NCBI RefSeq assembly: GCF_000758665.1
Contig: NZ_CP009285.1
Coordinates: forward strand, 1,550,001 to 1,614,000
DNA length: 64,000 nt
Source: Paenibacillus borealis
GTDB taxonomy: Bacteria; Bacillota; Bacilli; Paenibacillales; Paenibacillaceae
Direction of reading: 5' to 3'
The translations under genes were made by a program, and so were the position numbers. The notes beneath the pieces are model-generated. The model worked only from the letters and a program-made list of their open reading frames with translations. It did not search any database and was not told where the DNA came from. Positions within the stretch are counted from its first letter, which is position 1. Every line of letters starts with the position of its first letter. Positions 2,352 to 23,795 of the stretch are shown piece by piece.

Positions 2352-5300
2352 ATGAGCGTACAAGAAATGCTAACCAATCAGGTACAAAGAACCCCCAGAA
2401 TCAAACCTGGCTATCCGGAAGGCGAATTGGCTCTGGAGGATCCTGCCAAGCCTTCGGGCAAACCGGCCTTCTCCTGGCTGACGATTATTGTTCCGCCGAT
2501 TGGGATGATGCTGATTGCAATATTCATGTCAACCTTGACCAGGTCGTATACGATGCTGATCTCGACTATGAGTATGACCTTACTAACGGTTATGATTTCG
2601 GTGATGAATTACAAATCCAGTGTGAAGAAACATCTCGAACAAAATAAGAAGCTGGAGAAGAAATATCTGAATTATTTATTTCAGGTTCGCAATGAGCTGC
2701 AAAATGCTGCCAGTACGCAGCGTGAGGCTTATACATACATCCATCCGGACATTACAGGCTGTATTAAAATTGTCCGCGGCAGAAGCAAGCAGCTATGGGA
2801 GAGAACTGCAATTGAAGATGATTTCCTGAATACCCGGATCGGAGTGGGGATACAGCCCATTTCTCTGGTGCCTACATACAGCCCCACAACCAAAGCAATC
2901 GACGACGAGAATCCGCTTGAAGAGATTGCTGCCAAAATTTGCGAAGAAATGTATTTCGTAAGAGACATTCCCGTGTACATTCCGCTTAGAAATATTAATA
3001 CGCTGGGCATATTCGGCAGAAAGCGGGAGGTCAGCGAATTTCTGAATGCAGCTATCGTTCATCTGACTACACATCAGGGTTACGATGACGTAAGAATTGT
3101 GTGTGTGATGCAGCCTGAGGATCTGGAACACTGGGAATGGCTGAAATGGCTGCCCCATGCATGGGACAAAAGCTGGAGATTCAGAAGCCTGGCTACGACC
3201 TCTTACGAAGCCTCCAATTTTGCTGATGAACTCCTCCCGGTACTTAGAAAGAGAGAGGGAGACGACCAGAACGGTTATGGCATGCAGATGCTCCAGACCC
3301 CGCATTATGTATTCCTGGTGTTTGCTCCTGAATTGTGGGATAGCACAGAAATGATGAAGGTTCTGCTGTCCAATAATTCTGCGCTGGGCGCAACCAGCAT
3401 TTTTATCTCTGAGAAGATAGATGTTGCGCTGCCGCTGAATTGCCAGGCCATTCTTGAAATCAGGGACGGCCAAGGAATGGTCCGCAAAGATACGAAGCAG
3501 CTTTTAAATCATTTAGCAGGTCATTTCACAGTTGATTCTCTGGATAAGCAGCATTCAGAGTTTTTTGCCCGTTCATTATCTCCGCTTAGAATCAAGGAGG
3601 GGCAAAATAACAGTTATATTCCGCCAATGGTCACTTTCTTGGAGAGCTTTGAGGTAGAGCAGGTTGAGGAACTGAATGTTCTGCAGCGCTGGTCTAAAAA
3701 TCAGGCGAACCGGACACTGTCTATTCCTTTGGGGCTTGGGGCGGGAGGGAAATCCCTGGTGTTCGATATGCATGAAAAAAGCTACGGCCCGCATGGACTG
3801 GTTGCCGGGACCACCGGTTCAGGGAAGAGTGAGCTGCTCCAATCCCTGCTGCTGGGTTTGGCGGTGAATTACCATCCTCATGAGGTTGCTTTTGTGCTGA
3901 TTGACTACAAGGGCGGGGGAATGGCCAATGCTTTTCAGGGGCTGCCCCATCTGGTAGGAACAATCACGAACCTGGGCGGCAACCAGATTAACCGCGCCCT
4001 CGCATCCATCAAAAGCGAATTGCTGCGCAGACAGCGGCTGTTCAGTGATGCCGGTGTAACCAGCATTGATAATTACATCGTCTTGTACCGCAACAAGGAA
4101 GTCAGTCTTCCGTTGCCGCATCTGATCATAGTCGTGGATGAATTCGCGGAGCTGAAATCGGATCAGCCGGAATTCATGAAAGAGCTGGTCAGTGCGGCGC
4201 GGGTCGGAAGAAGCTTGGGTATTCACTTAATACTGGCAACTCAGAAGCCATCCGGAGTGGTCGATGATCAGATTTGGAGTAACTCGCGGTTCAAGCTGTG
4301 TCTGAAGGTGCAGACACCATCGGATAGCCAGGAAATGCTGAAACGTCCTGAAGCTGCAGAGATCAAAGAGAAGGGCCGCGGGTATTTGCAGGTCGGCAAC
4401 AATGAAGTCTTTACCCTATTCCAGTCCTCCTGGAGCGGAGCACCGTACTCTACCGGTGATTCGGCCGGCGATGGAAGACCGCAAATGGATATTGTCACCC
4501 TGGGCGGTGAGCGGAGATCCCTGCTGCCGAAGGTGAAGAGCAGTGACGGGGCCTCGCAATTAAGCGAGCTGCAGGCAGTGGTCAATCACATTGCAGCCCT
4601 CTCGGCAGAACACTCCACCCGGGAAGCCTTCCAGTTGTGGCTTCCTCCGCTTCCGGAGACTCTCCTGCTAACGGAAGTGCTGGAGCCGCAGCGAATCTGG
4701 AATGGAGTCCACTGGCAGCAACCTGCTGATAATCTGACGGCAACCGTAGGGCGGGTAGATAACCCTGCGGATCAGGATCAATACAATCTGGACATTAATT
4801 TTAACCAGAATGGACATTTGCTTGTGTACGGGGCACCGAGCAGCGGCAAAACCGTGCTGTTGAAGACCATTATTATGTCGCTTGCCCTGAAATACGATCC
4901 TGAATACGTGCATTTTTACATATTGGATTTCGGTACACGGACACTGGGCGTCTTTCATGAGCTGCCCCATCTGGGAGATATTATTTATCCTGAGGACGAA
5001 CAGAAGCTTGGTAAACTGATCAGCTGGCTGCTCTCCCAATTGGATGAGCGTAAACGTAAATTCTCTCAGCTTGGCATTAGCAATCTGGTGTCTTACTGCG
5101 CGGCAACAGGTGACAAGGTTCCATACATTGTTATTCTCCTCGATAACTACACCGGATTTGCAGAAGCGTACGATGATCATGTATTAGATCTGGCGAAGCT
5201 GGTGCGCGAAGGCGGAAACTACGGGATTTATTTTGTATTTACAGCCAATGCTGTCAGCTCCTATCCTTACCGGATCAGCCAGAATGTCAAGCAGGCTCTG

Positions 5301-6341: not shown

Positions 6342-6362
6342 ATAAGCAGGTGAAAAGAAGCG

Positions 6363-7344: not shown

Positions 7345-7371
7345 ACGGGTGGATTATCAAGGAGGTATCTT

Positions 7372-8823
7372 ATGAAAAGTGTACATTTAGTTTGCTCCCC
7401 TGAACTCATCATGCTTCTGTCAAGGTCACTGGAGCATGAAGGTTACGTGATTTCGGGTAAGCATTCTACCTTACATAGCTTTATCAGCGGGTTCAGCAGT
7501 AAAGAGGTTGATCCTTCATCCATCGTAATCATGGAGGGCGGAGCAGGTCTGGGTACACCCGTTAAGGCTGCCGATATTATCGGGTTCATGACCCTGATCC
7601 GCAAATATCTCAAACATACAAGACTGATTGTTCAGCTGGACCCAGCGCTGCGTACAGATGTTGAGTTCATCCGGTCCATGGTAAATATGAACATTCATGA
7701 TCTGCAGTTCACCACGGAATTCCGGGGCGATGATCTGCTGAACTGGATTAAGGAAAAGAAAACTACAAGGGATTATTATCATGTGCTGGGGAAAAAGAAG
7801 GGGCTGTTTTCCTTTAAAGGCCAAGCGGCAGCTACTCCCCCCGCACCGGTAAGGGAAGAGCTGCCGCCTGCTCCCGTGAGAGCGGCCCAGTCGCTTACCC
7901 GCCCGCAGCCCGCACCCGGTCAACAAGCTCCGGCAGGCAACGCCGGGAGGCCGGTTAATGCTGTGCGTCCTGCCGCAACAGCTACCGCGTCAAGGCCGAA
8001 ACCTCCAGTCCGGGCAGAGTCTCCGGCACCTTCCGAAGCAGGAACGCTGGAAAGCCTGGAACAATCCATTCCGGTTGAGGAGCACACTGCGCCTGTAACG
8101 GGTCAGAGAATACTGGGAAGCCATGTCCCCCTTGTTATTGGGGTGTGCGGTGTCGGCGGAGAAGAGGATGTAGGTGCGGCTGCTTTTCTGGTTGCGGCAG
8201 GACTGGCGGAGCTGGGCTGGAAGCCGCTGGTCTGCGGAGATGACCGGCCGGAGATCGGCTCACTTGAACAGATCGTATTTAAAGGCGAGAAGGAAGATTC
8301 CGTGTCCACTATGTTTGAATATGAAGGCGTTACTTTTTACCGCCGCGGCTATTCCTGGGATATGTCCGAGCTTCTGGCCAGCGGATTCACACATATCATT
8401 CTGTGGCTCGATATTCACCGTGAAAGGAAGGGCACCAGCGGGCTGGAGCTGTGGTGGAACTCGCAAATTCCAATGATGGTCGGTAATGGGGCTATGTGGA
8501 AATATGAGCTGCTGAAAGAAAAGCTGAATACGCTGAATCCGTTCGAACGCAAGCGTTGCAGACTGCTGCTGGAGAACGGGCACCAGGAAGTGCTGCAAGT
8601 GCTGAAGAAGGATTTCCCGGAAATTGAGACGACGTTGATGCCGGCGCATCAGGATCCGCTCTATCCAGATAAGGCGGCTGTCGATTGGGTTATGAAGCTG
8701 TTGACCGTTCAGAAGAAACTTATCCGCAAGCAAACGCTGTTCTGGATCATCGCAGGAACGGTATTATTTGTGACTTTGCTGTTAATAGGTATCGGCTTCT
8801 CGTTTGTTCCGGAGAGCCGTTAA
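7372..8823 (+). CDS. CpaE/TadZ-like pseudo-ATPase with C-terminal membrane anchor
   Basis: A 483-residue protein in three parts: an N-terminal receiver-like domain (1-145), a long Pro/Ala-rich linker (about 160-230), and a MinD/ParA-like domain (about 245-440). A C-terminal membrane helix follows (about 458-477). Where a MinD P-loop is expected the sequence reads GVCGVGGEEDVGAA, with no lysine or GKT/S motif, so nucleotide hydrolysis is unlikely. CpaE/TadZ proteins place Tad pilus machines at a cell site; an inactive membrane-tethered relative could be a scaffold. It starts with ATG after a good AAGGAGG site, directly downstream of the EsaB-like gene. Confidence 0.7.
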   Translation: MKSVHLVCSPELIMLLSRSLEHEGYVISGKHSTLHSFISGFSSKEVDPSSIVIMEGGAGLGTPVKAADIIGFMTLIRKYLKHTRLIVQLDPALRTDVEFIRSMVNMNIHDLQFTTEFRGDDLLNWIKEKKTTRDYYHVLGKKKGLFSFKGQAAATPPAPVREELPPAPVRAAQSLTRPQPAPGQQAPAGNAGRPVNAVRPAATATASRPKPPVRAESPAPSEAGTLESLEQSIPVEEHTAPVTGQRILGSHVPLVIGVCGVGGEEDVGAAAFLVAAGLAELGWKPLVCGDDRPEIGSLEQIVFKGEKEDSVSTMFEYEGVTFYRRGYSWDMSELLASGFTHIILWLDIHRERKGTSGLELWWNSQIPMMVGNGAMWKYELLKEKLNTLNPFERKRCRLLLENGHQEVLQVLKKDFPEIETTLMPAHQDPLYPDKAAVDWVMKLLTVQKKLIRKQTLFWIIAGTVLFVTLLLIGIGFSFVPESR

Positions 8824-8843: not shown

Positions 8844-9197
8844 ATGAATTCAGGTTTGGTTAGAAGTATGGCTTCTAATTGCCATCAGCTGCTGGCTCCT
8901 GCCCAGGATTGCAGCGACAAGATGAGTGCTGCAACCCTAGGCATCTCTGATTATTGGGTAGATATGGGCGGTGAAGAGTTTAAGCAGCATTGCACAGAAT
9001 GGATTAAGAAGATGAATCAATTCAAGGCCGCCATTGCGCAGATTGAATCTGAAATGATGAGTTATGCAACTGAATTACAGCGGACAGAAGAGGCAGAGGC
9101 TGCAAGAGTGAAGGAAGCCCAGCGGCAAGCCAGTGAAAGGGCTGCGGCTGAAGCAGCGGCAGCAGCTGCGGCAAAAAAGACAGGTAAAATCAAATAG
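8844..9197 (+). CDS. WXG100-like (ESAT-6 family) small protein with Ala-rich tail
   Basis: A 117-residue helical protein. After an N-terminal helix comes a turn with W-V-D-M-G-G-E-E-F (about residues 37-46), then a second helix, the usual helix-WXG-helix plan of secreted type VII substrates. The classical third-position Gly is replaced by Asp. The last 35 residues form a charged, Ala/Glu-rich helix not typical of 100-residue EsxA-like proteins. It has an AGGAGG site and sits between the pseudo-ATPase and the CpaB-like gene, so it may be a structural or substrate WXG100 of this system. Confidence 0.7.
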   Translation: MNSGLVRSMASNCHQLLAPAQDCSDKMSAATLGISDYWVDMGGEEFKQHCTEWIKKMNQFKAAIAQIESEMMSYATELQRTEEAEAARVKEAQRQASERAAAEAAAAAAAKKTGKIK

Positions 9198-9218: not shown

Positions 9219-10265
9219 GTGGCAGTACGCAAGCGGAAAAAAATGTTGAGATACACGATAATTTCAGGTTGTCTTGTTGCCGTCGCTACATCCGGGGTAT
9301 GGTTCGCAACCTACCGTCATTACAATGCCAGGCTAATTGATGAGCGGGCCGCTTATGAAGCACAGCTGGCGGACAAGGATGATGTCCTGCAGCGGTATAT
9401 GGACCAATCCCAGACTGCCTATGTTCTCGTCTCTGCCAAGCTTGCCGGTGAAGCAATTACTGCAGAGGATGTAATGGCAGAGAAGCTTCCTAAATTCTCT
9501 TCTCCGGACAACCTGATCAGTGATTCCAAGGGAATTGTCGGTAAATACCTTAAGATCAATGCCATGCCCGGGACAGCGGTGACTACTGAGATGGTGCGTG
9601 ATGAGGCGAGACTTGAGCCTTCGGAACGTAAGGAAGAGACGGAGTATATCAAGCTTCCGCTGCGGCTGACCAAACGGGATGTGGTCGATATCCGAATCGT
9701 ATTTCCTAACGGTGAGGATTACATAGTTGTTGGAAAGAAATCGCTGGAGGATGTTGATCTGGCGAATCAGTATACATTCTTCAACGATAGTGAAGAAGAA
9801 GCGCAGCTGCTTCAGGCAGCCTTAGTGGATGCTTATATTAACAATGCTGAGCTGTATATGAAGCAGTATGTAGAGCCTGAGCTACAGCCTGAGCCGGTAG
9901 TAAATTATGTGCCTAACCTGGATGTATTGAAAGTCATTAAAAGCAATCCCTTTATTATTGATCAGGCTAAGTGGAGCCTGGCTGAGGATCTGCGTAAAGA
10001 GCTGGAGAAACGGCTTGAAGCCCTTGAAGATGAAGATAACATCCGTGTCGGAGCAGACGCCCCTAGCGGCAGCGGTGTGATTAAACGGAAATCGGAGCAG
10101 GGAGCTGCAGCCGCTGAAGCTGCCGAAGTGGACAACAGCCAATCGGTTAACGGAATCATTGACCAGAGTAATCAGGCACCTGTGGATTCCAGCGCAGACC
10201 AGAGTTCGGCAGGCGGGATGAATACAGAAGCTACAAGCGAAGACAGTCTGCTGGAAGGAGAGTGA
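9219..10265 (+). CDS. CpaB/RcpC-like SAF-domain protein
   Basis: A 348-residue membrane-anchored protein. One helix lies near residues 9-28, followed by a SAF-like region (about 65-130) with the typical 'A-x-x-I-T-A-E-D-V' strand, and a mixed C-terminal region that ends in a Ser/Gln/Ala-rich tail. SAF proteins of the CpaB/RcpC family are periplasmic or cell-wall components of Tad pili. It starts with GTG at 9219, seven bases after TGAGG, and overlaps the next gene by 4 bases. A second, shorter relative is at 52154. Confidence 0.72.
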   Translation: MAVRKRKKMLRYTIISGCLVAVATSGVWFATYRHYNARLIDERAAYEAQLADKDDVLQRYMDQSQTAYVLVSAKLAGEAITAEDVMAEKLPKFSSPDNLISDSKGIVGKYLKINAMPGTAVTTEMVRDEARLEPSERKEETEYIKLPLRLTKRDVVDIRIVFPNGEDYIVVGKKSLEDVDLANQYTFFNDSEEEAQLLQAALVDAYINNAELYMKQYVEPELQPEPVVNYVPNLDVLKVIKSNPFIIDQAKWSLAEDLRKELEKRLEALEDEDNIRVGADAPSGSGVIKRKSEQGAAAAEAAEVDNSQSVNGIIDQSNQAPVDSSADQSSAGGMNTEATSEDSLLEGE

Positions 10266-10849
10266 CAGATTTGAATATTGTTGTCGCCGGAGATTGCGAG
10301 AAACATGATTTCATCCTGGTAGCCGCTATTCTATTAAAAGGCTATTACAACAATGACGTCATGATCATTTCGGACAATCGCAGGCATTATCAATATTTCG
10401 ATGGAGAAGTATCCGGTATACAGATACGGGATGCTGAGCCGGATGTGGCTGACAGACCGGATATTGTCCTGTATGACTGGCATCATGGTTATCCGGAAGG
10501 ACTGGAGGATGAACAGATTGTTTTTGCAACCAGCTATGAGCGCCAGGCTATGGAACATGTCGATGAATTGCTGGATCAAAAGCATATGCCTGCCCTTCTG
10601 GTTGTTATCGAAGAGGAGTGCGGGCTTGGACTGAATTATGTAGACCGGTATTATCCGGTCATCACCTCCAAGATTAGTTATATTACCAGCGCAGAGCGGA
10701 GAATTGACTGGGTTCATGACGGACGGGTGAATCTTAAGGTGGATAAGGATTTTGCCGGAGCTGTAAATGATTTTTTAATTGAAATCGGCAATGTGCCTAA
10801 GAATGAGATCAAGAAGCTGTGGCAGTATGCGAGGAAACGGGGGGAGTAA
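10262..10849 (+). CDS. Receiver-like protein, N-terminal half of a split CpaE-like pair
   Basis: A 195-residue cytosolic protein with alternating hydrophobic strands (NIVVAGDCEKHDF, MIISD, DIVLYDW, ALLVVIEEE) that suggest a receiver-like or Rossmann-like fold. There is no phosphoacceptor motif that I can assign and no P-loop. It starts with GTG overlapping the previous gene by 4 bases and stops one base before the MinD-like gene. In CpaE proteins a receiver-like domain precedes the ATPase domain in one chain, as in the gene at 52965; here the two parts appear to be separate genes. The exact family is not recognised. Confidence 0.65.
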   Translation: MTDLNIVVAGDCEKHDFILVAAILLKGYYNNDVMIISDNRRHYQYFDGEVSGIQIRDAEPDVADRPDIVLYDWHHGYPEGLEDEQIVFATSYERQAMEHVDELLDQKHMPALLVVIEEECGLGLNYVDRYYPVITSKISYITSAERRIDWVHDGRVNLKVDKDFAGAVNDFLIEIGNVPKNEIKKLWQYARKRGE

Positions 10850-10850
10850 G

Positions 10851-11684
10851 GTGCTGGTAGCATTTTGGGGCCCTGCCCGAGGGCAGGGAAGAACAACTTC
10901 AAATATGGCCGTTGTGGCGGCAACGATTGCACTGGATCATCATATCCGGGTGCTGATGACGCACACGCATTCGAAGCAAGGGTTACTTGAGTACGTATTC
11001 TCTCAGACAAGAACGGCTGCTCAGGCGGCAGGTACTTCCGCGGGGATGGATGCCATTGAACGGCTGGTGCAGTGCGGGATGCTTACCCCCGAGGGGATAA
11101 GAGATCATGCGGAATCTATTCTTAAAGACCGCCTGGAGCTGTTAAGCGGCTCTTTGAATACAGAGAAGCACACGGCCAAGCTGTTGCTTCCACACATTTT
11201 CAAAGATTATAGAAGATTTTATGATTTGCTGTTTGTGGACCTCTCGGCCGAAGACGACCCGGAGGTGGTATCACTGGTAATGGAGCAAGCGGATCTGGTT
11301 GTTGTGAATCTGAGCCAAAATCAGGTAAGCCTGAACACTTACTTTGAGACAAACGGAGGATTGCCTGTGCCAGGCCACAAGCAAGTGCTCTATTGCCTGG
11401 GTGCCTACGAGCGCAGCGCAAGGATGAATAAAGAAAGAATTATTAGGCAGTACGGGTTGAAGAAATCAGCAGTCGGCATTGTTCCATATCATACCGGTTT
11501 CATGGATGCACAGAACGAGCGCCGGACCGTGCCGTTCCTGCTGAAAGCAAGGGAGGCCAGAACCCGTTTCCTGGAATTCAGCGAAGACGGATCTTTCACT
11601 GCTGCAGTGCGCGGGATGGGCCAGCTTATTCTTCAGACGCTGGAAATATCCGCTTTGCCGGAATTGGAAGCTGCAAATGATTAA
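10851..11684 (+). CDS. MinD/CpaE-like ATPase-fold protein with altered P-loop
   Basis: A 277-residue protein starting at GTG 10851, one base after the previous stop, with GGGGGGAG as binding site; the reading frame also extends upstream, but only inside the previous gene. The N-terminus is V-L-V-A-F-W-G-P-A-R-G-Q-G-R-T-T, which matches the position of a deviant Walker A except that the catalytic lysine is Arg. Strands LLFVDLSAEDDPEV and LVVVNLSQNQ correspond to the later MinD core. It may bind but poorly hydrolyse ATP. It overlaps the CpaF-like gene by 8 bases. Confidence 0.72.
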   Translation: MLVAFWGPARGQGRTTSNMAVVAATIALDHHIRVLMTHTHSKQGLLEYVFSQTRTAAQAAGTSAGMDAIERLVQCGMLTPEGIRDHAESILKDRLELLSGSLNTEKHTAKLLLPHIFKDYRRFYDLLFVDLSAEDDPEVVSLVMEQADLVVVNLSQNQVSLNTYFETNGGLPVPGHKQVLYCLGAYERSARMNKERIIRQYGLKKSAVGIVPYHTGFMDAQNERRTVPFLLKAREARTRFLEFSEDGSFTAAVRGMGQLILQTLEISALPELEAAND

Positions 11685-13524
11685 TCTTATCCTGATATTC
11701 ATAGTCCTGATTATTATTGGAGTGTTCCTGTTCTTATGGCTGGGCAGACGTAAAAACTCGGCACCGCCATCCGTGCAGCTGAAATACGACATGAATGAAA
11801 TTGTGCTGTTTCTGAGACGTGCGTTCGAGGAGATTATCGCCTCTTCCCTCTATGAAGGCAGTCCCAGCGAAGAAGAATATAACCGCCGCAAAGCACGGCG
11901 CAGAGAATTGCAGAAGGCGCTTAGAAGCTGCATGCACGGGGATTTATCCGCCAAGAAATACGTCAAGCTGTACATGAAGGATCTGCTGGTGCAGACCTAT
12001 GGTCTGGATGAAGGAAATGTGGACAAGATCATCAGCTTCGGTCATACGGGCCGCCTGACTTCACAGGATTGCTTCGACATCCTGCTCCATGTCTTCAAGA
12101 AAGAACACGGGCAGGATGCATTCAATGTAATGGTAAGCAAATATAGTCTGGATACTCTTCAAAGACTGCCTGACGGTTCCCGGGGATACAAGATTACAGA
12201 AGAGCAAATCCGCCATATCTATCAATCGGAGCAGCCGAGATTGTCTATGCAGGACAAGATTGAAATTATTGTACAACGGGCCTATCAAATTTATAAAGGT
12301 CTTGGGGTCATTGATGAGCTGCGGGACCAGAATATCGACGGTGTGAATGGCGGAACAAGCGGCATGCCTCCGGATGTCGTGCAAACCACTGATTTTCTGG
12401 AATATACCAAACAGCAACATTTCATTCCGCAATCCTATGATGCGGTATGGACGTTCTACCGCGGGAAATCGCTTCATCTGGAATTCTTGAGCTTCGGTTC
12501 CGAGAAGGAGCTGAAACGGGTCTGCCAGAACATTTACGGCTTCGGCAATCCGGGCCAGCTGAATGAATCCAAGGGTTATATCATCAACGATATGGCTGAC
12601 GGCAGCCGTGTCGTGGTGGTGAGGCCCAAAATGGCAGAGAGCTGGGCATTCTTCGTCCGCAAATTCAATGACTCACTGGTGGAACTGGACCAGCAGATCA
12701 AAGATCCGGGTGCGCCGCTTGCTATTCATATGCTGGTCTACCTCATCCTTGGTCATCAGGTAACTGCAATCACAGGAAGACAGGGTTCGGGTAAAACAAC
12801 GCTGCTCAAGGCACTGATTAAATATATTGATGCGAAGAATATCCGGATTCAGGAGACCTCTTTTGAAATTTGGGCGAGAAAAATGTATCCGGGAAAAAAC
12901 ATCCTTTCTTTTAGGGAAACACCTTCGGTCAGCGGGCAGGACGGGCTGGATGTACAAAAGAAAACAGATGGCGCGGTTAATATTGTCGGCGAAGCCGCCA
13001 CTCACAGTGTGGTCAGTTATGTCATTCAGGCCGCCCAGGTGGCCTCTGAGTATACTTTGTTTACCCATCACGGCAAAACACTGGCGAATCTCGTCAGTGC
13101 ACTCCGCAACAGCCTGATTGCCTCGGGAGCGTTCAGCAATGAGAAAATTGCCGAGGTGCAGGTGGTGGAGGCGCTGGGCTTCAACGTGCATCTGGTGCTC
13201 AGAGCCGGCAAACGTTACATTGAGCGGATTACAGAGATCATTCCGGCCGACCCTCAGTTCGAATATCCGCGGAGTTACGCGGAGCGGGAGGAAATTACGG
13301 ACAAGCTGGATGCTTTTATGGATACCATGACTGAATATTTCGGGCGGATGACAGACAGGCGTTCTTATGATTACCAGGATATCATCGTCTGGGAAGCCGG
13401 AGAATACGTGGTCAAGCATCCGATCAGCAGCCGGAAAATTGATGAAATGCGCAAAAATATGGATGAGGATGATGCAGCGGAGTTTACTGCATTTATTGAA
13501 AAGTACTGGGGGCAATCCGCATGA
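11677..13524 (+). CDS. CpaF/TadA-like secretion ATPase with N-terminal membrane segment
   Basis: A 615-residue ATPase of the type II/IV secretion superfamily that would power the Tad-like part of the system. The C-terminal domain holds Walker A GRQGSGKTT (367-375) and the conserved N-I-V-G-E followed by His-containing T-H-H-G-K-T, matching the Walker B and His-box region of CpaF. Unlike usual CpaF proteins, residues 1-22 form a strongly hydrophobic helix, followed by a roughly 340-residue N-terminal region. Overlaps of 8 bases upstream and 4 bases downstream show tight coupling. Confidence 0.85.
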   Translation: MINLILIFIVLIIIGVFLFLWLGRRKNSAPPSVQLKYDMNEIVLFLRRAFEEIIASSLYEGSPSEEEYNRRKARRRELQKALRSCMHGDLSAKKYVKLYMKDLLVQTYGLDEGNVDKIISFGHTGRLTSQDCFDILLHVFKKEHGQDAFNVMVSKYSLDTLQRLPDGSRGYKITEEQIRHIYQSEQPRLSMQDKIEIIVQRAYQIYKGLGVIDELRDQNIDGVNGGTSGMPPDVVQTTDFLEYTKQQHFIPQSYDAVWTFYRGKSLHLEFLSFGSEKELKRVCQNIYGFGNPGQLNESKGYIINDMADGSRVVVVRPKMAESWAFFVRKFNDSLVELDQQIKDPGAPLAIHMLVYLILGHQVTAITGRQGSGKTTLLKALIKYIDAKNIRIQETSFEIWARKMYPGKNILSFRETPSVSGQDGLDVQKKTDGAVNIVGEAATHSVVSYVIQAAQVASEYTLFTHHGKTLANLVSALRNSLIASGAFSNEKIAEVQVVEALGFNVHLVLRAGKRYIERITEIIPADPQFEYPRSYAEREEITDKLDAFMDTMTEYFGRMTDRRSYDYQDIIVWEAGEYVVKHPISSRKIDEMRKNMDEDDAAEFTAFIEKYWGQSA

Positions 13525-15615: not shown

Positions 15616-16119
15616 ATGGAGAATATAGCAAGCTTTTTAAAAACAACCATTTCGATTCTGATCACGCTGGCCATTATATCCTCCGGCCTGTTCCTGTGGG
15701 GGAAAACGCAGCCTGTAGTTGAGCTTGCGAACAACCAGGCAGCGGCACAGGCGAGGGCGTTGTCGGAGCAGCAATATTCCGCCTTCGATAATCAGCTGGT
15801 CAGCGGCTCGCAGATTCTTACAGCATACCGCCGCTATGAGTCACAGCCGGGCTTCTGCCTTTATATTGAACGGCCTTATGTCTACGGTCAGGATGCATCC
15901 AATAGACAAATTAGTATGAATCCGAGCGGTGAGGGCTATTGCCGTGAGTTTGATTTTACAAGCGGGAAGTTTAAGGAAGGCACCAGATCTAGCTGGACAG
16001 ATGAGGATATATCAAATGCATCCGGTTCGGTTTACATCAGCCCCCAATCCAGGTACAGGGCTAAGCTGATCAAAGACAAGAACGAGCGGATTGCGGCTAT
16101 TTATTTTCAGGCACAGTAG
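15616..16119 (+). CDS. Membrane-anchored pilin-like protein (VSG-motif family), member 1
   Basis: A 167-residue protein with a short N-terminus, one membrane helix (about 9-29) and an extracellular domain. It shares with the next two genes the start MENI, a motif reading S-A-F-D-N-Q-L-V-S-G-S-Q-I-L about 55 residues in, and an ending with K-D-K-N-E-R-I-A-A-I-Y-F. It has no Gly/Glu+5 prepilin-peptidase site, so it is not a classical Flp pilin. GAAGGAG precedes the ATG. Placement directly after the platform gene suggests a pilus or pseudopilus subunit. Confidence 0.65.
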   Translation: MENIASFLKTTISILITLAIISSGLFLWGKTQPVVELANNQAAAQARALSEQQYSAFDNQLVSGSQILTAYRRYESQPGFCLYIERPYVYGQDASNRQISMNPSGEGYCREFDFTSGKFKEGTRSSWTDEDISNASGSVYISPQSRYRAKLIKDKNERIAAIYFQAQ

Positions 16120-16178
16120 TGTTGTTGGACTGACAGTATAGAAGCAACCTTTCAATATAAAGTGAGGAGGAGAACTTC

Positions 16179-16679
16179 ATGGAGAATATTTCGACCGGTC
16201 TAAAATGGGTCATCGGCATTATTGTTACCATTCTAATTATCGCTGCAGGTGTAAGTATTTACCTGATCATTAACAACTACTTCATCCGCGCCCAGGAGCA
16301 GACGCTGGCCCAGACCCAGATGATTAATCAGGCGGAATTTAACAGCTATGACAACAAGGATGTGTCGGGCCAGGATGTAATCAATGCGGCGATGCGGTAC
16401 AAGGGCCGTCCGCAGTTTGCGATTAAGATACAGACCGGGGAAAATACAACGGGGTTTTATGCGGAGAATACATATAAATCTTACTATAAACAGCCTGCTT
16501 CAGAAGGTGGTGTAGTGGATTTATCAGACCCGGGTGGGAGTAACCCGCAAAGTGTTTCTGAAATGCTGGACATAACAAATAAAGATAATTGTACAGTCAA
16601 TACACTTGGCCGATTCAAATCTACTATTTACCGGGATCAGAATGATGAAGTCAGGCTGATTGTATTTACTCAAAACTAG
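16179..16679 (+). CDS. Membrane-anchored pilin-like protein (VSG-motif family), member 2
   Basis: A 166-residue protein, membrane helix about 10-30, then a helix rich in Gln and Asn and the motif S-Y-D-N-K-D-V-S-G-Q-D-V-I-N-A-A. Its first roughly 90 residues are nearly identical to the next gene, while the middle differs and the last 25 (R-D-Q-N-D-E-V-R-L-I-V-F) agree again. This is the pattern of a recent tandem duplication with divergence of the exposed part. No prepilin peptidase site is seen. GTGAGGAGG lies upstream of the ATG. Confidence 0.68.
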   Translation: MENISTGLKWVIGIIVTILIIAAGVSIYLIINNYFIRAQEQTLAQTQMINQAEFNSYDNKDVSGQDVINAAMRYKGRPQFAIKIQTGENTTGFYAENTYKSYYKQPASEGGVVDLSDPGGSNPQSVSEMLDITNKDNCTVNTLGRFKSTIYRDQNDEVRLIVFTQN

Positions 16680-16703
16680 AAACCAAGGTGAGGAGAGAAT
16701 GTC

Positions 16704-17240
16704 ATGGAGAATATTTCAACCGGGCTGAAATGGGTGATTGGTATTATTGTCACTATTCTGATCGTCGCAGCAGGAGTGAGTATTTATCTGGTGATTAATA
16801 ATTACTTCATACGCGCGCAAGAACAGACCTTGGCCCAGACCCAAATGATTAATCAGGCAGAGTTCAACAGCTATGATAATAAGGATGTCTCAGGACAGGA
16901 TGTAATTAATGCCGCTATGAAATATAAAGGACGGCCGCAATTCTCCATATTGATTAGAACAGGGGTAAATACGGCAGGCTTCTTTGCGCAAAATACATAC
17001 GAAACGTACTATGATCCTCCATATGTAAAAGAGGGGGAAACCGAAACTAAGTTTCATTTTGAAAACTCTAAATTAGATAATAAAAGCGTATCTCAAATGC
17101 TGGACCTAAGCGATAACGATGTAGCTAATGATAAAAATTGCAATGTGAACACACAGTCTGCATTTAAAGCTAACGTATTCAGGGACAAGAACGGTGAAGT
17201 TCGATTAATTGTATTTGATCAAAATGAAGCCGGAAAATGA
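16704..17240 (+). CDS. Membrane-anchored pilin-like protein (VSG-motif family), member 3
   Basis: A 178-residue tandem paralogue of the preceding gene with the same anchor (10-30) and S-Y-D-N-K-D-V-S-G-Q motif. It has a longer, more charged variable middle (about 110-150) and a matching C-terminus (F-R-D-K-N-G-E-V-R-L-I-V-F). Its stop overlaps the next start (ATGA). Being next to the platform and ATPase genes, it is a candidate exported or surface-assembled subunit. The exact function is unknown. Confidence 0.68.
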   Translation: MENISTGLKWVIGIIVTILIVAAGVSIYLVINNYFIRAQEQTLAQTQMINQAEFNSYDNKDVSGQDVINAAMKYKGRPQFSILIRTGVNTAGFFAQNTYETYYDPPYVKEGETETKFHFENSKLDNKSVSQMLDLSDNDVANDKNCNVNTQSAFKANVFRDKNGEVRLIVFDQNEAGK

Positions 17241-17599
17241 GAACCGCCACCCAATTCCTGCTAACCCTATTCGCCTGGATCATGTTCGTAATTGGCGGCT
17301 TTACGTTTCTGCGCCTGGAAGCTGACAGCAATGTTCAGGCCAGTCGGCCGGAGCAGCCTACAGTTGCATTAGCCCCATATACAGGGACCGGTGATTTGAA
17401 GAAAGTCTCAGGAGAGCAGCTAATCGGTATGATTCCTCAGGCACTCGAAGGGGATTACATTTTAGTGATAGACGGCATTGTATTTAATGAAGAAACAGAC
17501 CTTGATGCAGTGGATCTGCGGGGAGTGCCTGGCGCTGCTTATGAGCTAAGGGTTACGCGGACTAATGAGATGGTTACGGAAATCTCTGCTGCCCGCTGA
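17237..17599 (+). CDS. Small membrane-anchored protein, short relative of the VSG-motif family
   Basis: A 120-residue protein with a membrane helix at about 7-26 and an outside domain. The stretch K-K-V-S-G-E-Q-L-I-G-M-I lines up with the V-S-G-(Q/S)-x-(V/I) motif of the three preceding proteins, so it may be a minor member of the same family. It is coupled by a 4-base overlap to the previous gene and is followed 15 bases later by another anchored protein. Function unknown. Confidence 0.62.
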   Translation: MRTATQFLLTLFAWIMFVIGGFTFLRLEADSNVQASRPEQPTVALAPYTGTGDLKKVSGEQLIGMIPQALEGDYILVIDGIVFNEETDLDAVDLRGVPGAAYELRVTRTNEMVTEISAAR

Positions 17600-17614
17600 G
17601 AAAGGAGGAGCCTC

Positions 17615-18166
17615 ATGGCAGATGCGCTAAAAGGTGTAATTATCGTGATTCTGCTGGCCTTTGTGTTTGGAGTCTACCCGGCCTTCCGCCAATCAGAGGT
17701 AGTAGAGAGGAATACGAAGCTTGCAGCGAATGCGGCTGTGGTGGAGTTCGTAGATACGGTTCGTGCCAAAGGGTATGTGGATGTCGGAGATTATGAGCGG
17801 TTTCTTCATACGCTGGATGCTTCATATGCGGTATTCGATGTTCAAATGGAATACTACAAAAAGAATCTGGAGCCTCTGTACACCAATCCTGATGATTATT
17901 CCACCTTTCAGAACAGCTTCAGTGTCAGGTATGACGGATATTTTAACAAGGATATATTAGGAGTCTTGTATCCTGGGTCAGCAGCTTCACTTGCTGCAGA
18001 TGCTCCCGGCAGAAGGTTCACCATGCATGTCGGTGATCTGTTCAATGTCCGGCTGGAATCCGCAGGAACGACACTGGCTTCGCGGATGCGGTCGATGTTG
18101 TTCCAGAGTGAGGGGATTCCGCTCAATTTGAAGTACGGGGGAATGGTACGAAGTGAAGCCCCTTAG
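17615..18166 (+). CDS. Membrane-anchored pseudopilin-like protein
   Basis: A 183-residue protein with an N-terminal hydrophobic helix (about 5-24) ending in Y-P-A-F-R-Q, then an amphipathic helix and a mixed outside domain. It has an AAAGGAGG site. It corresponds in position to the 126-residue gene at 57975 of the third Tad-like locus. TadE-like proteins have this plan, but the conserved Gly/Glu+5 processing site is absent. Its last 14 bases overlap the next gene. Confidence 0.6.
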   Translation: MADALKGVIIVILLAFVFGVYPAFRQSEVVERNTKLAANAAVVEFVDTVRAKGYVDVGDYERFLHTLDASYAVFDVQMEYYKKNLEPLYTNPDDYSTFQNSFSVRYDGYFNKDILGVLYPGSAASLAADAPGRRFTMHVGDLFNVRLESAGTTLASRMRSMLFQSEGIPLNLKYGGMVRSEAP

Positions 18167-19133
18167 TGTAGTGCTTATTTTTTTGATTATAGTAATACCG
18201 CTAGTGCTTATTAATGATACTAGAGAAGACCTCCGGGTCTTTAATGAAGACCAGTACAAACGTTATTCCGATGATTTTCAGGCCGCAGTGGATGATGCCG
18301 GAGACTATCTGTCCCGGCTGGAAATGCAGCCGACGATAACGGCGGTCCATTATGGCCGGGAGCGCCAGCTGAAGCTGGATCAGGATGTGCTGAGTGTGTT
18401 CTACAGTAACCTGGCGTTGAAATTCGGACTGGAGAATAATAGGGCTGAATTGAACAATCTGAAAATGCATATGCCAGCCCTTGTGATGTTCGGTTATAGC
18501 GGATATACGCTGGTTACGCTTGATGATACAGCCGGTAACGGGGGAGAGAAGGAGCTTAAGCCTGTCAGCTGGCCTGAGCGGCCCTATTACTACAAACTTC
18601 AGAACGGCAATCTGCTCTATTTCACTTTGGATGACAATGCACGGGTGTATGATACTGGGACCAATGAATTCTATGAGGGAGATTATGTAGAACTGGCTGC
18701 AGAAACGAGTCTCGCACCTATCAACTCACTTGAGCTATTCCGTGAGATCCGCCAGAGCACGATCACTACACTGGTTGAACAGGATATGGCCACGGCCATT
18801 AACCGGCACCTGGAGCTGGTGAAGCGGATGGGCTTGTCCATCCAGTTCACACTCCCGCGCGGTCTTCAGGAGCAGTCGATACAGGATGTGGGGATGATGG
18901 CTTTTATACAAGGCTATCCGCTTCCCGGCGGGGAGCTGCTGGATGCTTATTCCCTCGGTAGCGGCGCGGTCATGCGGCGCAAGGTGCTGATCGGAACCCG
19001 GAATGCAGCAGGCCGGCGCACGGCTTACGGTGAAAGCTGCTTGCCTGCCGGAGCGAATGTGATTGAGAGCCTGTTCGATCCCGAGGAGGCTGCGAGGAAA
19101 GGGTATTTTGTGGAGGATTGTGCGGTCAGGTGA
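18153..19133 (+). CDS. Membrane-anchored extracytoplasmic protein of the hybrid system
   Basis: A 326-residue protein with an N-terminal membrane helix (about 4-20) and a large outside domain. It has two cysteines near the end (C-L-P-A-G and E-D-C-A-V), which could form a disulfide. It starts with GTG inside the end of the preceding gene. It occupies the same slot as the 165-residue anchored protein at 58376. I do not recognise the family; TadE/TadG-like minor subunit is a guess from position. Confidence 0.6.
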   Translation: MKPLSVVLIFLIIVIPLVLINDTREDLRVFNEDQYKRYSDDFQAAVDDAGDYLSRLEMQPTITAVHYGRERQLKLDQDVLSVFYSNLALKFGLENNRAELNNLKMHMPALVMFGYSGYTLVTLDDTAGNGGEKELKPVSWPERPYYYKLQNGNLLYFTLDDNARVYDTGTNEFYEGDYVELAAETSLAPINSLELFREIRQSTITTLVEQDMATAINRHLELVKRMGLSIQFTLPRGLQEQSIQDVGMMAFIQGYPLPGGELLDAYSLGSGAVMRRKVLIGTRNAAGRRTAYGESCLPAGANVIESLFDPEEAARKGYFVEDCAVR

Positions 19134-19173
19134 AAGAAAATGAATGAGTTCAATTCAATAGAGGAGGGACATA

Positions 19174-20397
19174 ATGAAAAAAATAATACTTAACAGCCTA
19201 TTAATTGTTTCTATGGTATGCACAAGTTTGTTGGTGCAGAGTCGTCCAGTGCTTGCAGCAGCAGAGCAGTCTGCTACATTTACGGACATTCAAGGGCACT
19301 GGGCTAAAGCCGCTATCGATACGGCAGTGAAAAGTGGTTACTTCAAAGGATATGCCGACGGCACTTTTAAACCGAATGGAACTGTAACGCGTGCAGAGTT
19401 CGCGGCGTTATTGTCTAGGGCAACGAAGACACAGGCAGAGAATGCTCAAACGAATGTTTTTGCGGATCTGGCAGGCCACTGGAGTGAGGCAGAAGTCAAT
19501 CGGGCGGTTTCGCTGGGTTACGTTAATCCGAGTGACTATCCTAACGGATTTAAGCCAAGCACACCTATCACACGTGCGGAAATTGCCAAATGGATGACCT
19601 CCGGACTTGCGGCTGGTGACGCAGATTATAAGCAAGCTTTGCAGGACACGGTTACAACGGTACTTCCGGTAAAAGAATATTTTAAACCGGGTATCCCACA
19701 GTCCCAAGCTCCTTACATTGCGGTTTCTCTGGGAACCAAGCTGATGAGCGGCTATCCGGACGGGTCATTTGGATTAACGAAGCAGGCGACCCGGGCCGAA
19801 GCATCCGCTATTCTGCTGCGTCTGAATGAGGTTAGCCAGCAGGAGGCAAGCAGCTTTGTAGGATTAAACGAATTGCGGGAAGTCGGAACCGAGCGGACCA
19901 ATATGGAGAGCATTAGTCCGTTTAGAACTCGTGCTGGTACCTCGGTCAATGGAATCATAGGGAAGAAGTATACTTTCCGTAACAAATCCGGAAGTATGAC
20001 TGTGAAAAATATTTTAGTGGTCGATTCACAAGACTTTACAAATATTAAGGGGATTTATGGGCCATTATTTGTAGATAAGAATTATAAATTTCAACGGATA
20101 GATGTTAAGGGTATGTATAGAGTATTTGCTGAAATTACAATATACCCCGTTAAAGAAAAATTTTATGCTAGTAATTATTATGAGGGGGCACCTTCTTTAC
20201 TCGTGGGAATGTACAGCGAGAATAAGTTGCCTGAGAAATTCGGCTATACAATGATACCGAGAACTCCATCATATGATTTCTATTTAAAGAGCGGTGTAAC
20301 CTTATGGGTTAACTTATTATGGGAAATAGATGAATTTCCCAGATGGGTAGATTTTGACGATGGTACCAAGCTCGACATTGAAGTTAGAAATAATTAG
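19174..20397 (+). CDS. Secreted S-layer-homology (SLH) domain protein
   Basis: A 407-residue exported protein with a Sec signal peptide (about 1-28, ending V-L-A-A). Three SLH repeats follow (about 34-90, 91-150, 155-215), with clear F-x-D-(I/L)-x-G-H-W motifs in the first two and G-Y-P-D-G-S-F-G in the third. SLH triplets bind pyruvylated secondary cell-wall polymers, so this protein would hold something at the wall. The C-terminal 160 residues are a domain I do not recognise. That part (from about 20000) is clearly more AT-rich than the SLH part, which suggests an exchanged tip. GAGGAGG precedes the ATG. Confidence 0.88.
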   Translation: MKKIILNSLLIVSMVCTSLLVQSRPVLAAAEQSATFTDIQGHWAKAAIDTAVKSGYFKGYADGTFKPNGTVTRAEFAALLSRATKTQAENAQTNVFADLAGHWSEAEVNRAVSLGYVNPSDYPNGFKPSTPITRAEIAKWMTSGLAAGDADYKQALQDTVTTVLPVKEYFKPGIPQSQAPYIAVSLGTKLMSGYPDGSFGLTKQATRAEASAILLRLNEVSQQEASSFVGLNELREVGTERTNMESISPFRTRAGTSVNGIIGKKYTFRNKSGSMTVKNILVVDSQDFTNIKGIYGPLFVDKNYKFQRIDVKGMYRVFAEITIYPVKEKFYASNYYEGAPSLLVGMYSENKLPEKFGYTMIPRTPSYDFYLKSGVTLWVNLLWEIDEFPRWVDFDDGTKLDIEVRNN

Positions 20398-20408
20398 GAG
20401 GGTGAATA

Positions 20409-23400
20409 GTGAGAAGATGGTTACCACTACTTACTCTGGTTATTATTATTTGTTTTTTTAATCCTGTTTCTACAAGAGCAGAAAATAATGAATTTACGAG
20501 TGGTTATCCGGCAGTGGCACAAGGGTTTGAGATTACACCACAAGGACCGGCAAGTATGCAAGCAGTTAAAGTTGAGGTCAAGGGGCTAGCTGAGGCAAAT
20601 CCAAAGGTTGTATGGGTACAGCATGATTCAGGTGAGTGGACAGCTAGTTATAACGGAGGAACTACAACTGTTACTACTACTGGTACAGTTAATTCAGCAG
20701 GTGAGAAAGTTCCTAATGAGAAACGAACCGATTTTTCTTTAGATATGGGTATTTATGCTCCTGTTTCAATGCAAGATGAACTAGGAAATGCCTTTCAGAA
20801 AGAGTATATCAGTAACCTCAGTATCTATGAGATGCGCTGGAGGACCCTGCATAGTTATGAGGCTGTAGGAGCTAATCCGGAATTTCAAGCAGGATCCTTG
20901 AATGCGAATATAAAAGTTATTACAGGCTTCCCGAATTCTTACACCAATAGAGAGAGCTACAATGAAGGAAGTGGTCCCGCAAAATATATTGCTGAATACG
21001 AAATTCTTATGGATGTGGCCTTCAAGGGATACGTGGTTGAAAAGAAACAAATGCGTGTACTCCAAAATGCTACCTTACAAGTTAACGAGACAAAAAATAT
21101 GCAAGCGCAAGTTAGAACGATGAGTGTAACCATGTCCCAATTTACCAACAATTGGTTTGATGTTACGGTTTTCCCATTTAACGAAGATAAAAAAGAAGGC
21201 ACAGTATGGAGTTCTGATAATTCATCGGTTGCGAGTGTAGACCAGTATGGAAAGGTTAAGGCCAATGCAGCGGGGACAGCGCATATTACGGCACAATGGA
21301 AAAAGGGACCTTATTTTCTATATGGAACTGCTACCATAACCGTAGGCGGCGGGGGAGAAGGCTCAGGCTCAGGCGAATGCACCTACACCATTCAACCTCC
21401 GAACAAGATCGCGGCTCCGCAAGCATCATTTATGGACCCGTCAGCGAGCGGGGTAATTCTAGGTGATGATGCAGCGAATGGAGTACATTTTGATGCACCG
21501 ACCGGAATTCCTACCTCAGATCATTTATACGCCGATGCTTGGGGAAAGAATTATTTGTTTGAACATACCTTTGCCAATATGGCAGGGCAGATACGCTATT
21601 CCTGCAGTGTGGATGTTACATATCCTACTAAATGGGAGGAAGCGCAGCCGGATCTTCCGGGAGAGGATGGAGGAGATCCGATCCCCCAAGACCCGCTTCC
21701 CAAAACGTCATCCTTTGACAAAACCTACACCTTTGAATTGACACCAAGAGAATATGCGTACTGGCAGATCGACCAGTTATCCGTATATCAAATCGACCGG
21801 GCGCTGATGGAGAACTATGCACTGCCGGGAGGTTCAGTCACACTTTACCCTAATAACTATAATCCTCCAGCGCTTGAACTTGCCAACAGCACTGTGGTGG
21901 AGGAGCATGTTGTTCCCCAAGAGACAGGAACCCTATCGTTTACGCCGGAGGTGGTCGATGGCGGGGACCATGAACCAGGTCCGGGCGATGTTGATGATTC
22001 AGCGGAGCTTAAGAGTCTTGCAGAATCGCAAACGCAAGATCCCAAGGTGCAGAATGACCGGCTGGTATTTAACGGACAGATAATTATGGATGACACTGTC
22101 TCTCCAAAGACCGGGCCCGTTCCGGGAAGGATTGCCGATCCGCAGGATACCGGAGGCGATGTACTTTATCGAGGCCAGTTGATGATTAACCGGAGTCTGC
22201 TCAACCGGGCAAATGCGGCCAGTTCTGGCTCAATATATTACACGATGCTGCCGGAGAATGTGGAGGGACAGGGGGACCGGGCGTATCCAATCAATGGAAT
22301 TAACTCCATCACCGTACACACACCAGTCGTCAACTATTCGCTTCTCCCTGACGATAACCGTCCTTACGACCAGCGGATGGACCCGGATTACGAACGGACG
22401 GTACTGATTCTGGACCGGCCCTTTACTGTTCATTTCACAGAGAGCGGGCAGCACCTGAACATCCCCGGCTACGGCAACCGGGATTATGGCAAGTACACGC
22501 AGAACAAACGCATCCAGTTTCCGTTCGGTGTGTTCCAAGAAGGGCAGTATTACCCGGAAAACACCTGGATCAACATCCCTGTCGGGACACCGTACATGAA
22601 CTTTACCATGCCGACTTGGGTTAACGAAGGGGACTATACCATTCATACACAGTCCTGGGCAATCAATACACCTTCAGACGGGGCGGAGTTGTGTCAGGTT
22701 AATCTGAACGGTAATTTGGCGAATTACTGCGCAGCAGAGAGCTTCAATGTCGGTGTGGTCGGGCGGCTGTTCGATTTTCGGATCTGGGATATCGGAGATT
22801 TCCGGTTTGAAAAAGTATTCCGCACGGGAACGGGCAATTTGGACCATAGCAGCGCAATGTATTATACGGGCGGGAACGATGAGAATGGTGCACCAACGGC
22901 TTTAAGCGGACAAAGACAGTGGCATCTCCCTATCCGCAAAGGTTCACATCCCACGGAGCAAATAACGGTTCCGCATAACGGCTACTCGTTTCTGTTCGAT
23001 TTCCGGACCATTGGGAATCTGTGGCAGCCGGGAGAGGGAACTCGCATTGAGCCAAGCTTCTACTTTATTCCGAAAACCGGAGGAAGTGCAGCGCCCGTAG
23101 ATCTGTATTATGACGTCTCGGGTTCGGGCAATAAGATGATCGGAGTAGGCTCACCGAAGGACAAGCTGAGCTATACCCGCACCTACCGCTTAGCCGATGG
23201 CCTGCGGAATATATCAGGCGGTGAGTTATCCACTGCGGCCAGCTATGAGTATAACTATATCCTCACGGAGGCGGAGCGGGGACAAACGAATTGGCTGAAG
23301 TTCTACGAGCAGTATATAAAGCGCAAAACCGAGATTTCCGAAGGCTATAACCTGGAAATTCTGCCTTATACATCGCGTACCTTAGTCGGTCCTACGAATA

Positions 23401-23795
23401 TTCCGAATGGAGTAAACCCCATTGCCGCAGTACGCAGCGTGCAGCACTGGTACGGGGAATACAACCTGCCGATAGCTCCTTACATCCTGCCCAAGGGAAC
23501 TAACATTGTGACTTTGGCGAATCATTATGGAGGCGCACTGGACGGCCATGAACAGGAGTTCATTACCGGCGGCTATATCCTGGTGAAGTTCGAAATTTAT
23601 ACGGTCAAAAATAGTGATGCCGGCACCCGCATTCTGGGCTACAAAGCGCCTGAAGCCAATATGTGGGCGATTGAAGGCCAGATGACAGCTGACACTGATG
23701 AAATGGGACATCCGTTTTCTTTTTCCTCCGGCGATATTATTCTGTTCGAATCAGACTTTTCTGTGCGCAATGACTATCAGGGTCAGGGGAAATAA
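20409..23795 (+). CDS. Large secreted surface protein with Big_2-like domain
   Basis: A 1128-residue protein starting with GTG after AGGAGGGTGA, with a signal peptide of about 25 residues. After a roughly 220-residue N-terminal region comes a bacterial Ig-like (Big_2) domain, recognisable by S-S-V-A-S-V-D-Q-Y-G-K-V and A-A-G-T-A-H-I-T-A. Then follow Gly/Ser- and Pro/Asp-rich linkers and a long beta-rich C-terminal region. There is no LPXTG or membrane anchor. Composition changes from AT-rich (20.4-21.3 kb) to GC-richer (after about 21.35 kb). As last gene of the hybrid operon it may be its exported surface adhesin; inference from position. Confidence 0.75.
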   Translation: MRRWLPLLTLVIIICFFNPVSTRAENNEFTSGYPAVAQGFEITPQGPASMQAVKVEVKGLAEANPKVVWVQHDSGEWTASYNGGTTTVTTTGTVNSAGEKVPNEKRTDFSLDMGIYAPVSMQDELGNAFQKEYISNLSIYEMRWRTLHSYEAVGANPEFQAGSLNANIKVITGFPNSYTNRESYNEGSGPAKYIAEYEILMDVAFKGYVVEKKQMRVLQNATLQVNETKNMQAQVRTMSVTMSQFTNNWFDVTVFPFNEDKKEGTVWSSDNSSVASVDQYGKVKANAAGTAHITAQWKKGPYFLYGTATITVGGGGEGSGSGECTYTIQPPNKIAAPQASFMDPSASGVILGDDAANGVHFDAPTGIPTSDHLYADAWGKNYLFEHTFANMAGQIRYSCSVDVTYPTKWEEAQPDLPGEDGGDPIPQDPLPKTSSFDKTYTFELTPREYAYWQIDQLSVYQIDRALMENYALPGGSVTLYPNNYNPPALELANSTVVEEHVVPQETGTLSFTPEVVDGGDHEPGPGDVDDSAELKSLAESQTQDPKVQNDRLVFNGQIIMDDTVSPKTGPVPGRIADPQDTGGDVLYRGQLMINRSLLNRANAASSGSIYYTMLPENVEGQGDRAYPINGINSITVHTPVVNYSLLPDDNRPYDQRMDPDYERTVLILDRPFTVHFTESGQHLNIPGYGNRDYGKYTQNKRIQFPFGVFQEGQYYPENTWINIPVGTPYMNFTMPTWVNEGDYTIHTQSWAINTPSDGAELCQVNLNGNLANYCAAESFNVGVVGRLFDFRIWDIGDFRFEKVFRTGTGNLDHSSAMYYTGGNDENGAPTALSGQRQWHLPIRKGSHPTEQITVPHNGYSFLFDFRTIGNLWQPGEGTRIEPSFYFIPKTGGSAAPVDLYYDVSGSGNKMIGVGSPKDKLSYTRTYRLADGLRNISGGELSTAASYEYNYILTEAERGQTNWLKFYEQYIKRKTEISEGYNLEILPYTSRTLVGPTNIPNGVNPIAAVRSVQHWYGEYNLPIAPYILPKGTNIVTLANHYGGALDGHEQEFITGGYILVKFEIYTVKNSDAGTRILGYKAPEANMWAIEGQMTADTDEMGHPFSFSSGDIILFESDFSVRNDYQGQGK

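Follow-up and report, generated by a model that had tools for sequence, protein, structure and literature searches.

The complete, single-contig 8.16-Mb genome of Paenibacillus borealis, whose relatives within the genus include Paenibacillus camerounensis (G064), contains a cluster in which the genes of a type VII secretion system (T7SS) of the T7SSh class are followed by those of a Tad-type pilus-like machine. The cluster lies within a stretch of 64,000 nucleotides (contig NZ_CP009285.1, positions 1,550,001 to 1,614,000), referred to here as the window and numbered from its first letter, and forms a packed run of + strand genes of about 21 kb (2352-23795). We propose that the two machines likely act as one toxin-delivery apparatus, a reading to which we assign a probability of about 0.55, because gene trees indicate that they were joined at least three separate times in the Paenibacillaceae. 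An unsolved question is how type VII substrates cross the thick wall of Gram-positive bacteria.

The T7SSh class has been described as a set of five T7 genes, TshC, TshG, TshB, TshM and TshA, that adjoin Tad genes, with TshG being EspG-like and Paenibacillus sp. HW567 given as a T7SSh strain (Garrett, Higginson and Palmer 2024; PMC11217815). The window has the same five T7 genes in kind, with the same Tad adjacency, and the gene order in HW567 (L138) is identical to it. The order, to which the first-pass annotation of the window had drawn attention, is T7SSh and already published, as a literature check against T7SS subtypes revealed; because the published strain shares it, the link between the two machines is the remaining question, and the part of that article that treats the class leaves open whether the neighbourhood is a coincidence (PMC11217815). 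A literature search combining T7SS with Tad or Flp pili found no paper, and among the matches listed for T7SSh and T7SSg the article of Garrett et al. was the sole relevant one. Here, we describe new observations: the recurrence of the Tad-EssC pairing in four locus types, gene trees that point to at least three joinings, a Tad module that stands alone, the architecture of TshM together with its EsaB-like fusion, and pilin-like proteins that show no leader.

Recurrence of the EssC-Tad pairing

Among 98 Paenibacillaceae genomes, 31 were found to carry an EssC over the family cut-off, with 34 such loci in all, and stretches of about 20 kb round each of these loci (the window itself in the case of G000) were searched for CpaF and for the Tad membrane platform by profile and by tblastn. 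Tad genes adjoin EssC at 19 of the 34 loci, which fall into type A (T7SSh, 5 loci), type B (2), type C (2) and type D (T7SSg-like, 10); no CpaF or platform was found within the stretch at the other 15. EssC stands upstream of the Tad block in type A, the Tad block lies between TshM and EssC in type B, and the Tad genes are upstream of EssC in types C and D. The T7 genes of type B (a vWA gene in G070b and a kinase gene with a transmembrane (TM) segment in its relative G007) fit T7SSc as described, and the type C EssC of G028 carries an FHA domain (E 3e-15); thus, T7SS of several kinds are accompanied by Tad genes. Also present in G028, between the Tad genes and EssC, is the gene of an M23 peptidase (L076:11985-12938; PF01551, E 2e-29), a possible wall-opening enzyme, and a gene that resembles it by eye occurs in G046.

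For the Tad loci with a fused platform, nine EssC-platform pairs lie within 15 kb of one another, against 0.17 expected by chance in the 31 EssC-bearing genomes. Ten of the 98 genomes have the D-type CpaF (E below 1e-60), in each case at a distance of about 4 kb from EssC. Outside the family, 12 genomes of a phylum-wide sample of 398 carry an EssC over the cut-off; one of the 11 examined (G185, L128, from another class) has Tad genes, the fragmentary G301 having been left out, and this search used Paenibacillaceae CpaF and platform queries only, so that a distant Tad could escape it.

A search of the 98 family genomes located the fused platform 61 times, in 51 genomes and nine times beside EssC; in the phylum-wide sample it was found in 5 of the 398 genomes, all five being Paenibacillaceae, with at most two candidates scored per genome. 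We examined 20 of the 52 places away from EssC, plus G097 and G083. Genes for CpaB, a 195-residue protein, CpaE, CpaF and the platform follow one another in identical order at all 20 stand-alone loci, with one pilin-like gene in 18 of them and none in 2 according to a simple gene caller. Since it stands alone in many relatives, the Tad module has a job without a T7SS.

The first-pass annotation had treated the T7SS and Tad genes as a single unit, and their association at 19 of 34 EssC loci in a survey of 98 genomes, with at least three joinings in the trees described below, upholds them as a real, recurrent unit. It had also named the separation of the parts in relatives as a finding that would count against this view, and here the outcome is divided: each part occurs without the other, yet the pairing is far from random.

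Number of joinings

A tree of the 34 EssC rows rejected a grouping of types A and B (p 7e-86), as well as the placing of all Tad-linked rows in one clade (p 2e-81), and its supported branches force at least three changes of Tad label. The corresponding tree of 41 CpaF rows, which contains 8 of the 10 type D loci and, within types A and C, the EssC-less G097 and G083, rejected A with B (p 0.0015), A with B and C (p 0.006), and all four together (p 5e-8). When G097 is omitted, the test of A with B gives p 6e-5, which forces that row out and is not relied on. The simplest reading of the two trees is that at least three separate joinings took place (A/C, B and D). Within type A (14 loci, last 780 EssC residues), the trees of EssC and CpaF agree on 8 of 11 splits.

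Type D loci resemble the published T7SSg, which has an EssC without FHA domain and immediately adjacent Tad genes (PMC11217815); the fit extends to two WXG100 genes in several loci and to a YukD-like and an approximately 280-residue protein encoded before EssC. Type D differs in its Tad genes: TadB and TadC are separate, and its CpaF belongs to a distant lineage. This type is therefore a different Tad joined to a different EssC.

Architecture and relatives of TshM

In the published account of T7SSh, TshM is not confidently predicted and has some potential kinase homology (PMC11217815), whereas in our analysis it is read as a receiver followed by a MinD-like domain and a membrane anchor, the architecture of TadZ/CpaE. 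The hydrophobic C-terminal helix in the predicted structure model (residues 452-477) is the single C-terminal TM segment expected for a T7SSh TshM. The leader gene of most stand-alone Tad loci encodes a kinase plus MinD-like protein, and the same slot in T7SSh is held by TshM; from their sequences, the two proteins are related. A kinase function of TshM itself was considered and rejected for the T7SS-linked members, as kinase motifs were found in none of 15, a count for which the catalytic-loop motif alone was inspected in 7 and which leaves out rows under 100 bits (the D-type receiver plus ParA proteins and two others). The kinase similarity is most likely due to relatives whose N-terminal half contains a kinase. 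Comparison of the TshM profile with that of the D-type receiver plus ParA proteins gave E 0.02, too weak for use.

In three species the receiver of TshM is replaced by what appears, at weak scores, to be a domain like EsaB, the ubiquitin-like protein of T7SS. Furthermore, in G007 TshM adjoins EssC where Tad is absent beside it, and TshM is therefore not merely part of Tad. In this T7SSc-like locus (L081, 3026-12146) the gene immediately ahead of EssC is TshM; the genome also has two stand-alone Tad loci at other places.

Components of the T7SS and Tad gene sets

The features of the window are collected in Table 1. Its EssC scored 1213 bits against TIGR03928 (cut-off 778) and is the sole EssC over that cut-off in the genome; no FHA family appeared among the 25 of 26 Pfam matches listed, and the claim of an EssC without FHA domain is thus borne out among the matches listed. 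The protein in the TshG position has no NCBIfam match and no Pfam match below E 0.2. TshB has no direct Pfam match as a single sequence, and a profile-profile comparison of 11 TshB proteins with a set of 11 YukD-like proteins gave a probability of 93. No match to EssA or EssB was found in the complete genome, in a search whose B. subtilis control was positive, and EssB was found in none of the 98 Paenibacillaceae genomes. For EsaA, four matches in the genome fell below the cut-off of 122 bits (the best reached 94.7), and none of them lies in the window, so that the earlier statement that the T7SS membrane partners are missing stands for EssA and EssB and is less secure for EsaA.

On the Tad side, the CpaB-like gene is the first before CpaE and CpaF in the compared fused-platform loci, and the CpaF-like protein has a sub-cut-off match to TIGR03819 (E 6e-8). 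The platform has no meaningful Pfam match; in a weak profile comparison two of its stretches align with canonical TadC (E 5e-4 and 6e-4), and the TadB profile gave E 0.11. The structure model of pilin-like protein 2, a long helix and a small beta domain, found no match in PDB below E 0.7, and the label pilin-like therefore rests on this layout and on the gene neighbours. No prepilin leader or G-xxxx-E site was seen in 34 aligned pilin-like proteins read by eye; nearly all of these share a single Met start and have a TM helix that sets in near residue 8, whereas in one row the predicted start is 21 residues longer. No prepilin peptidase was found among the Pfam matches of the operon proteins. 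Because both the leader site and the peptidase are missing in this way, this Tad variant probably does not process its pilins, although a peptidase from elsewhere may act on them. A separate canonical Tad locus carries one (PF01478, E 4e-20). The pilin-like genes (15616-17240 in the window) number two or three in type A and B loci, including two in type A loci that have no EssC.

Table 1. Annotated features of the cluster and of the genes directly downstream of it
Feature	Position	Strand	Basis
EssC/TshC, membrane FtsK-type ATPase without FHA domain, 1329 aa	2352..6341	+	TIGR03928; PDB YukB, E 4e-151
TshG-position protein, 253 aa	6363..7124	+	Position; homologues beside other EssC genes (iterated hidden Markov model)
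TshB, EsaB/YukD-like ubiquitin-like protein, 83 aa	7093..7344	+	Profile comparison
TshM, 483 aa: receiver-like 1-140, low-confidence linker, MinD/ParA-like 254-445, C-terminal TM 452-477	7372..8823	+	
TshA, WXG100 protein	8844..9197	+	PF06013, E 3e-7, over cut-off
CpaB-like (SAF domain) membrane protein	9219..10265	+	TIGR03177, E 8e-4; SAF, E 0.005; both sub-cut-off
195-aa protein, conserved in Tad module	10262..10849	+	
CpaE-like protein, true start probably nearer 10850	10779..11684	+	TIGR03815, E 2e-4, sub-cut-off; hidden Markov model family across compared fused-platform loci
CpaF/TadA-like secretion ATPase, 615 aa, Walker A intact by eye	11677..13524	+	PDB CpaF 8rkd, E 2e-6; tree
Fused TadB/TadC-type membrane platform, 693 aa	13521..15602	+	Directly after CpaF in compared loci; weak TadC profile alignment
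Pilin-like protein 1	15616..16119	+	Family membership
Pilin-like protein 2	16179..16679	+	AlphaFold2: helix 3-55, then small beta domain, pLDDT (model confidence) 80.5
Pilin-like protein 3	16704..17240	+	Family membership
Small membrane protein, conserved in Tad module	17237..17599	+	PDZ_2, E 0.004, sub-cut-off
o183, single-pass membrane protein of Tad module	17615..18166	+	
o326, single-pass membrane protein of Tad module	18153..19133	+	
SLH-domain surface protein	19174..20397	+	PF00395, E 2.5e-31
DUF5704 + Big_2 surface protein, 1128 aa	20409..23795	+	PF18964, E 2e-58
Second WXG100 protein (likely start 23985), likely partner of downstream toxin	23985..24284	+	PF06013, E 5e-9
Polymorphic toxin, C-terminal deaminase, likely T7SS substrate	24392..26530	+	PF14424, E 2e-40
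Imm3 immunity protein	26557..26925	+	PF14425, E 9e-32

The gene run and its downstream neighbours

All genes that the first-pass annotation had named are present on the + strand in the order it gave (EssC, EsaB-like and WXG100-like genes, then CpaB, CpaE, CpaF, platform, pilin-like, SLH and Big_2 genes), as gene calls and coordinates confirm, and the overlaps and very short gaps that it reported were measured at -32 to 59 bp, apart from the CpaE-like gene, whose start is uncertain. EssC is preceded by a terminator-like site (1856-1875) and by roughly 480 bp in which no gene is likely. Within the run, the scan gave five terminator-like matches on the + strand (at 3383, 3538, 14716, 15926 and 18925); since every one is intragenic and the total of 21 matches is at shuffle level (16.5 expected in shuffled sequence, standard deviation 4.6), none of them is good evidence of a break. 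Promoter and terminator scans were in general close to shuffle levels. A run without terminator up to 23.9 kb had been claimed, and its uninterrupted interior agrees with these scans; its end at that point is not confirmed, because the terminator scan found no + strand terminator at 23.8-24.0 kb.

Downstream of the run lies a toxin array (24392-29980) with two deaminase toxins (PF14424), an Imm3 gene and a metallopeptidase toxin (PF15640), preceded by a WXG100 gene. In another genome (G040, L135:501-4020), a partial o183 and a second copy of o326 stand ahead of another toxin gene, as if the Tad end and the toxin had been duplicated together. A tRNA-Leu gene (gag; 32423-32505) separates the toxin array from a second, canonical Tad locus (37420-46442), which lies about 14 kb downstream of the T7SSh run and consists of genes for CpaE, CpaF, TadB, TadC, a TadE-like protein, DUF5702, a further TadE-like protein and an A24 prepilin peptidase.

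Discussion

The gene content and order of these loci, the recurrence of the pairing and its more than one origin, the kinship of TshM with a protein of stand-alone Tad loci and the replacement of its receiver by an EsaB-like domain (at weak scores) can be read from sequence. From these we propose a mechanism in which EssC, with its WXG100 and EsaB-like partners, would export WXG100-paired polymorphic toxins through the membrane, and in which the CpaF motor and the fused platform would assemble a short fibre or stalk from uncleaved pilin-like proteins. The SLH and DUF5704 proteins would tie this fibre or stalk to the S-layer, and it may serve to carry or position the site of export, both through the thick wall and at a neighbouring cell. 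The predicted adaptor is TshM, which would attach the complex of EssC and EsaB to the base of the Tad machine. More tentatively, T7SSh and its kin may be true hybrids, in which TshM, a TadZ-like hub that became an EssC/EsaB adaptor (with an EsaB-like domain fused to it in some species), connects the T7 motor to a wall-crossing stalk of Tad origin; such a coupling would have arisen at least three times, from different T7SS and different Tad lineages.

This combination departs from the known systems on both of its sides. It shares the EssC family, EsaB-like proteins and WXG100 proteins with the T7SSb of S. aureus and B. subtilis, but the window's EssC lacks FHA, EssA and EssB have no match and no EsaA lies over the cut-off. 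It resembles a Tad/Flp (type IVc) pilus in its CpaB-, CpaE-, CpaF- and platform-like genes, in order, and in its TadZ/CpaE-like TshM, but differs in its fused platform, in having no prepilin peptidase in the operon and in pilin-like proteins without visible leader. It differs also from T7SSh as published in that the Tad module is seen here standing alone elsewhere and joined to T7SS more than once. Myxococcus xanthus is a predator and is not Gram-positive. Its Kil system, in which a Tad pilus is functionally tied to a secretion basal body in contact killing, may serve as a precedent, with the difference that its secretion part is a needleless type III secretion system (PMC12075869).

A doubtful alternative, to which we nevertheless give some weight, is that two separate machines share a task, the Tad fibre contacting or sticking to neighbours while the T7SS secretes alone, and that their genes lie together for co-production only. 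The CpaB-to-platform set at 20 of 20 stand-alone Tad loci agrees with this, as do the 15 of 34 EssC loci that are Tad-less and the type A Tad without EssC in 4 of 15 cases; yet shared regulation requires neither that TshM, a homologue of the Tad leader, lie among the T7SS genes nor that it be fused to an EsaB-like domain, and in the Tad-less locus of G007 TshM adjoins EssC. A coincidence, the loci having stayed together by descent in a few genera with no functional tie, is the case left open in the published treatment of the class (PMC11217815). The confinement of type A to Paenibacillus and Longirhabdus, and of the fused platform to five Paenibacillaceae among the 398 phylum-wide genomes, speaks for it, but it accords poorly with at least three joinings in the EssC and CpaF trees and differing gene arrangements, with the linkage of the T7SSg-like Tad in 10 of 10 genomes and its single occurrence beyond the class, and with nine pairs where 0.17 were expected. 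These results already make coincidence unlikely, and we accord it very little probability.

Equally improbable, in our view, is the replacement put forward by the first-pass annotation, in which Tad membrane parts stand in for EssA, EssB and EsaA as channel partners of EssC. It draws on the lack of any EssA or EssB match in the genome and on an EsaA that is sub-cut-off only. As EssB was found in none of the 98 family genomes and 15 of the 34 EssC loci are Tad-less, EssC at those loci works, if at all, without both EssB and Tad; a stand-in of this kind is thus weak, is not needed, and was rejected as a general rule. The other suggestion of that annotation, a conduit spanning the wall, is neither demonstrated nor contradicted by these results.

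Several observations weigh against our proposal that the T7SS and Tad machines form one apparatus. In a census of genome contigs, four of the 15 type A platforms (L145, L147, L148 and L149) have no EssC in a flank of 10 kb, or in a longer one for L147 (= G097), and the other 11 have EssC upstream; G083 has a type C Tad without EssC, and G007 has EssC and TshM without adjoining Tad. Stand-alone Tad loci keep a relative of the SLH protein (4 of 20) or of the DUF5704 protein (4 of 20), so that these surface proteins go with the Tad half, independent of the T7SS. The YukD matches in the TshM fusion lie below the Pfam cut-off. Long branches occur in both trees, and for the EssC tree the software gave a warning that such branches were joined to one another; within type A there is one well-supported conflict between EssC and CpaF, in the placing of L143 and L146, which suggests some exchange or tree error. 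Finally, a grouping of A and C in the CpaF tree was not rejected (76/90). A count of four independent joinings was reduced to three on this ground: the CpaF of the two types are not separable and may share one Tad origin, which makes three the safe count.

We also describe, in this family, a Tad variant that apparently does without prepilin processing and whose platform was found in 51 of 98 genomes, mostly with no adjoining T7SS. The joining of the two machines more than once, and the presence between them of a TadZ-like TshM that, in some species, carries a fused EsaB-like domain, make the T7SS-Tad link directly testable. If the hybrid reading is true, these loci would constitute a pilus-coupled class of type VII secretion.

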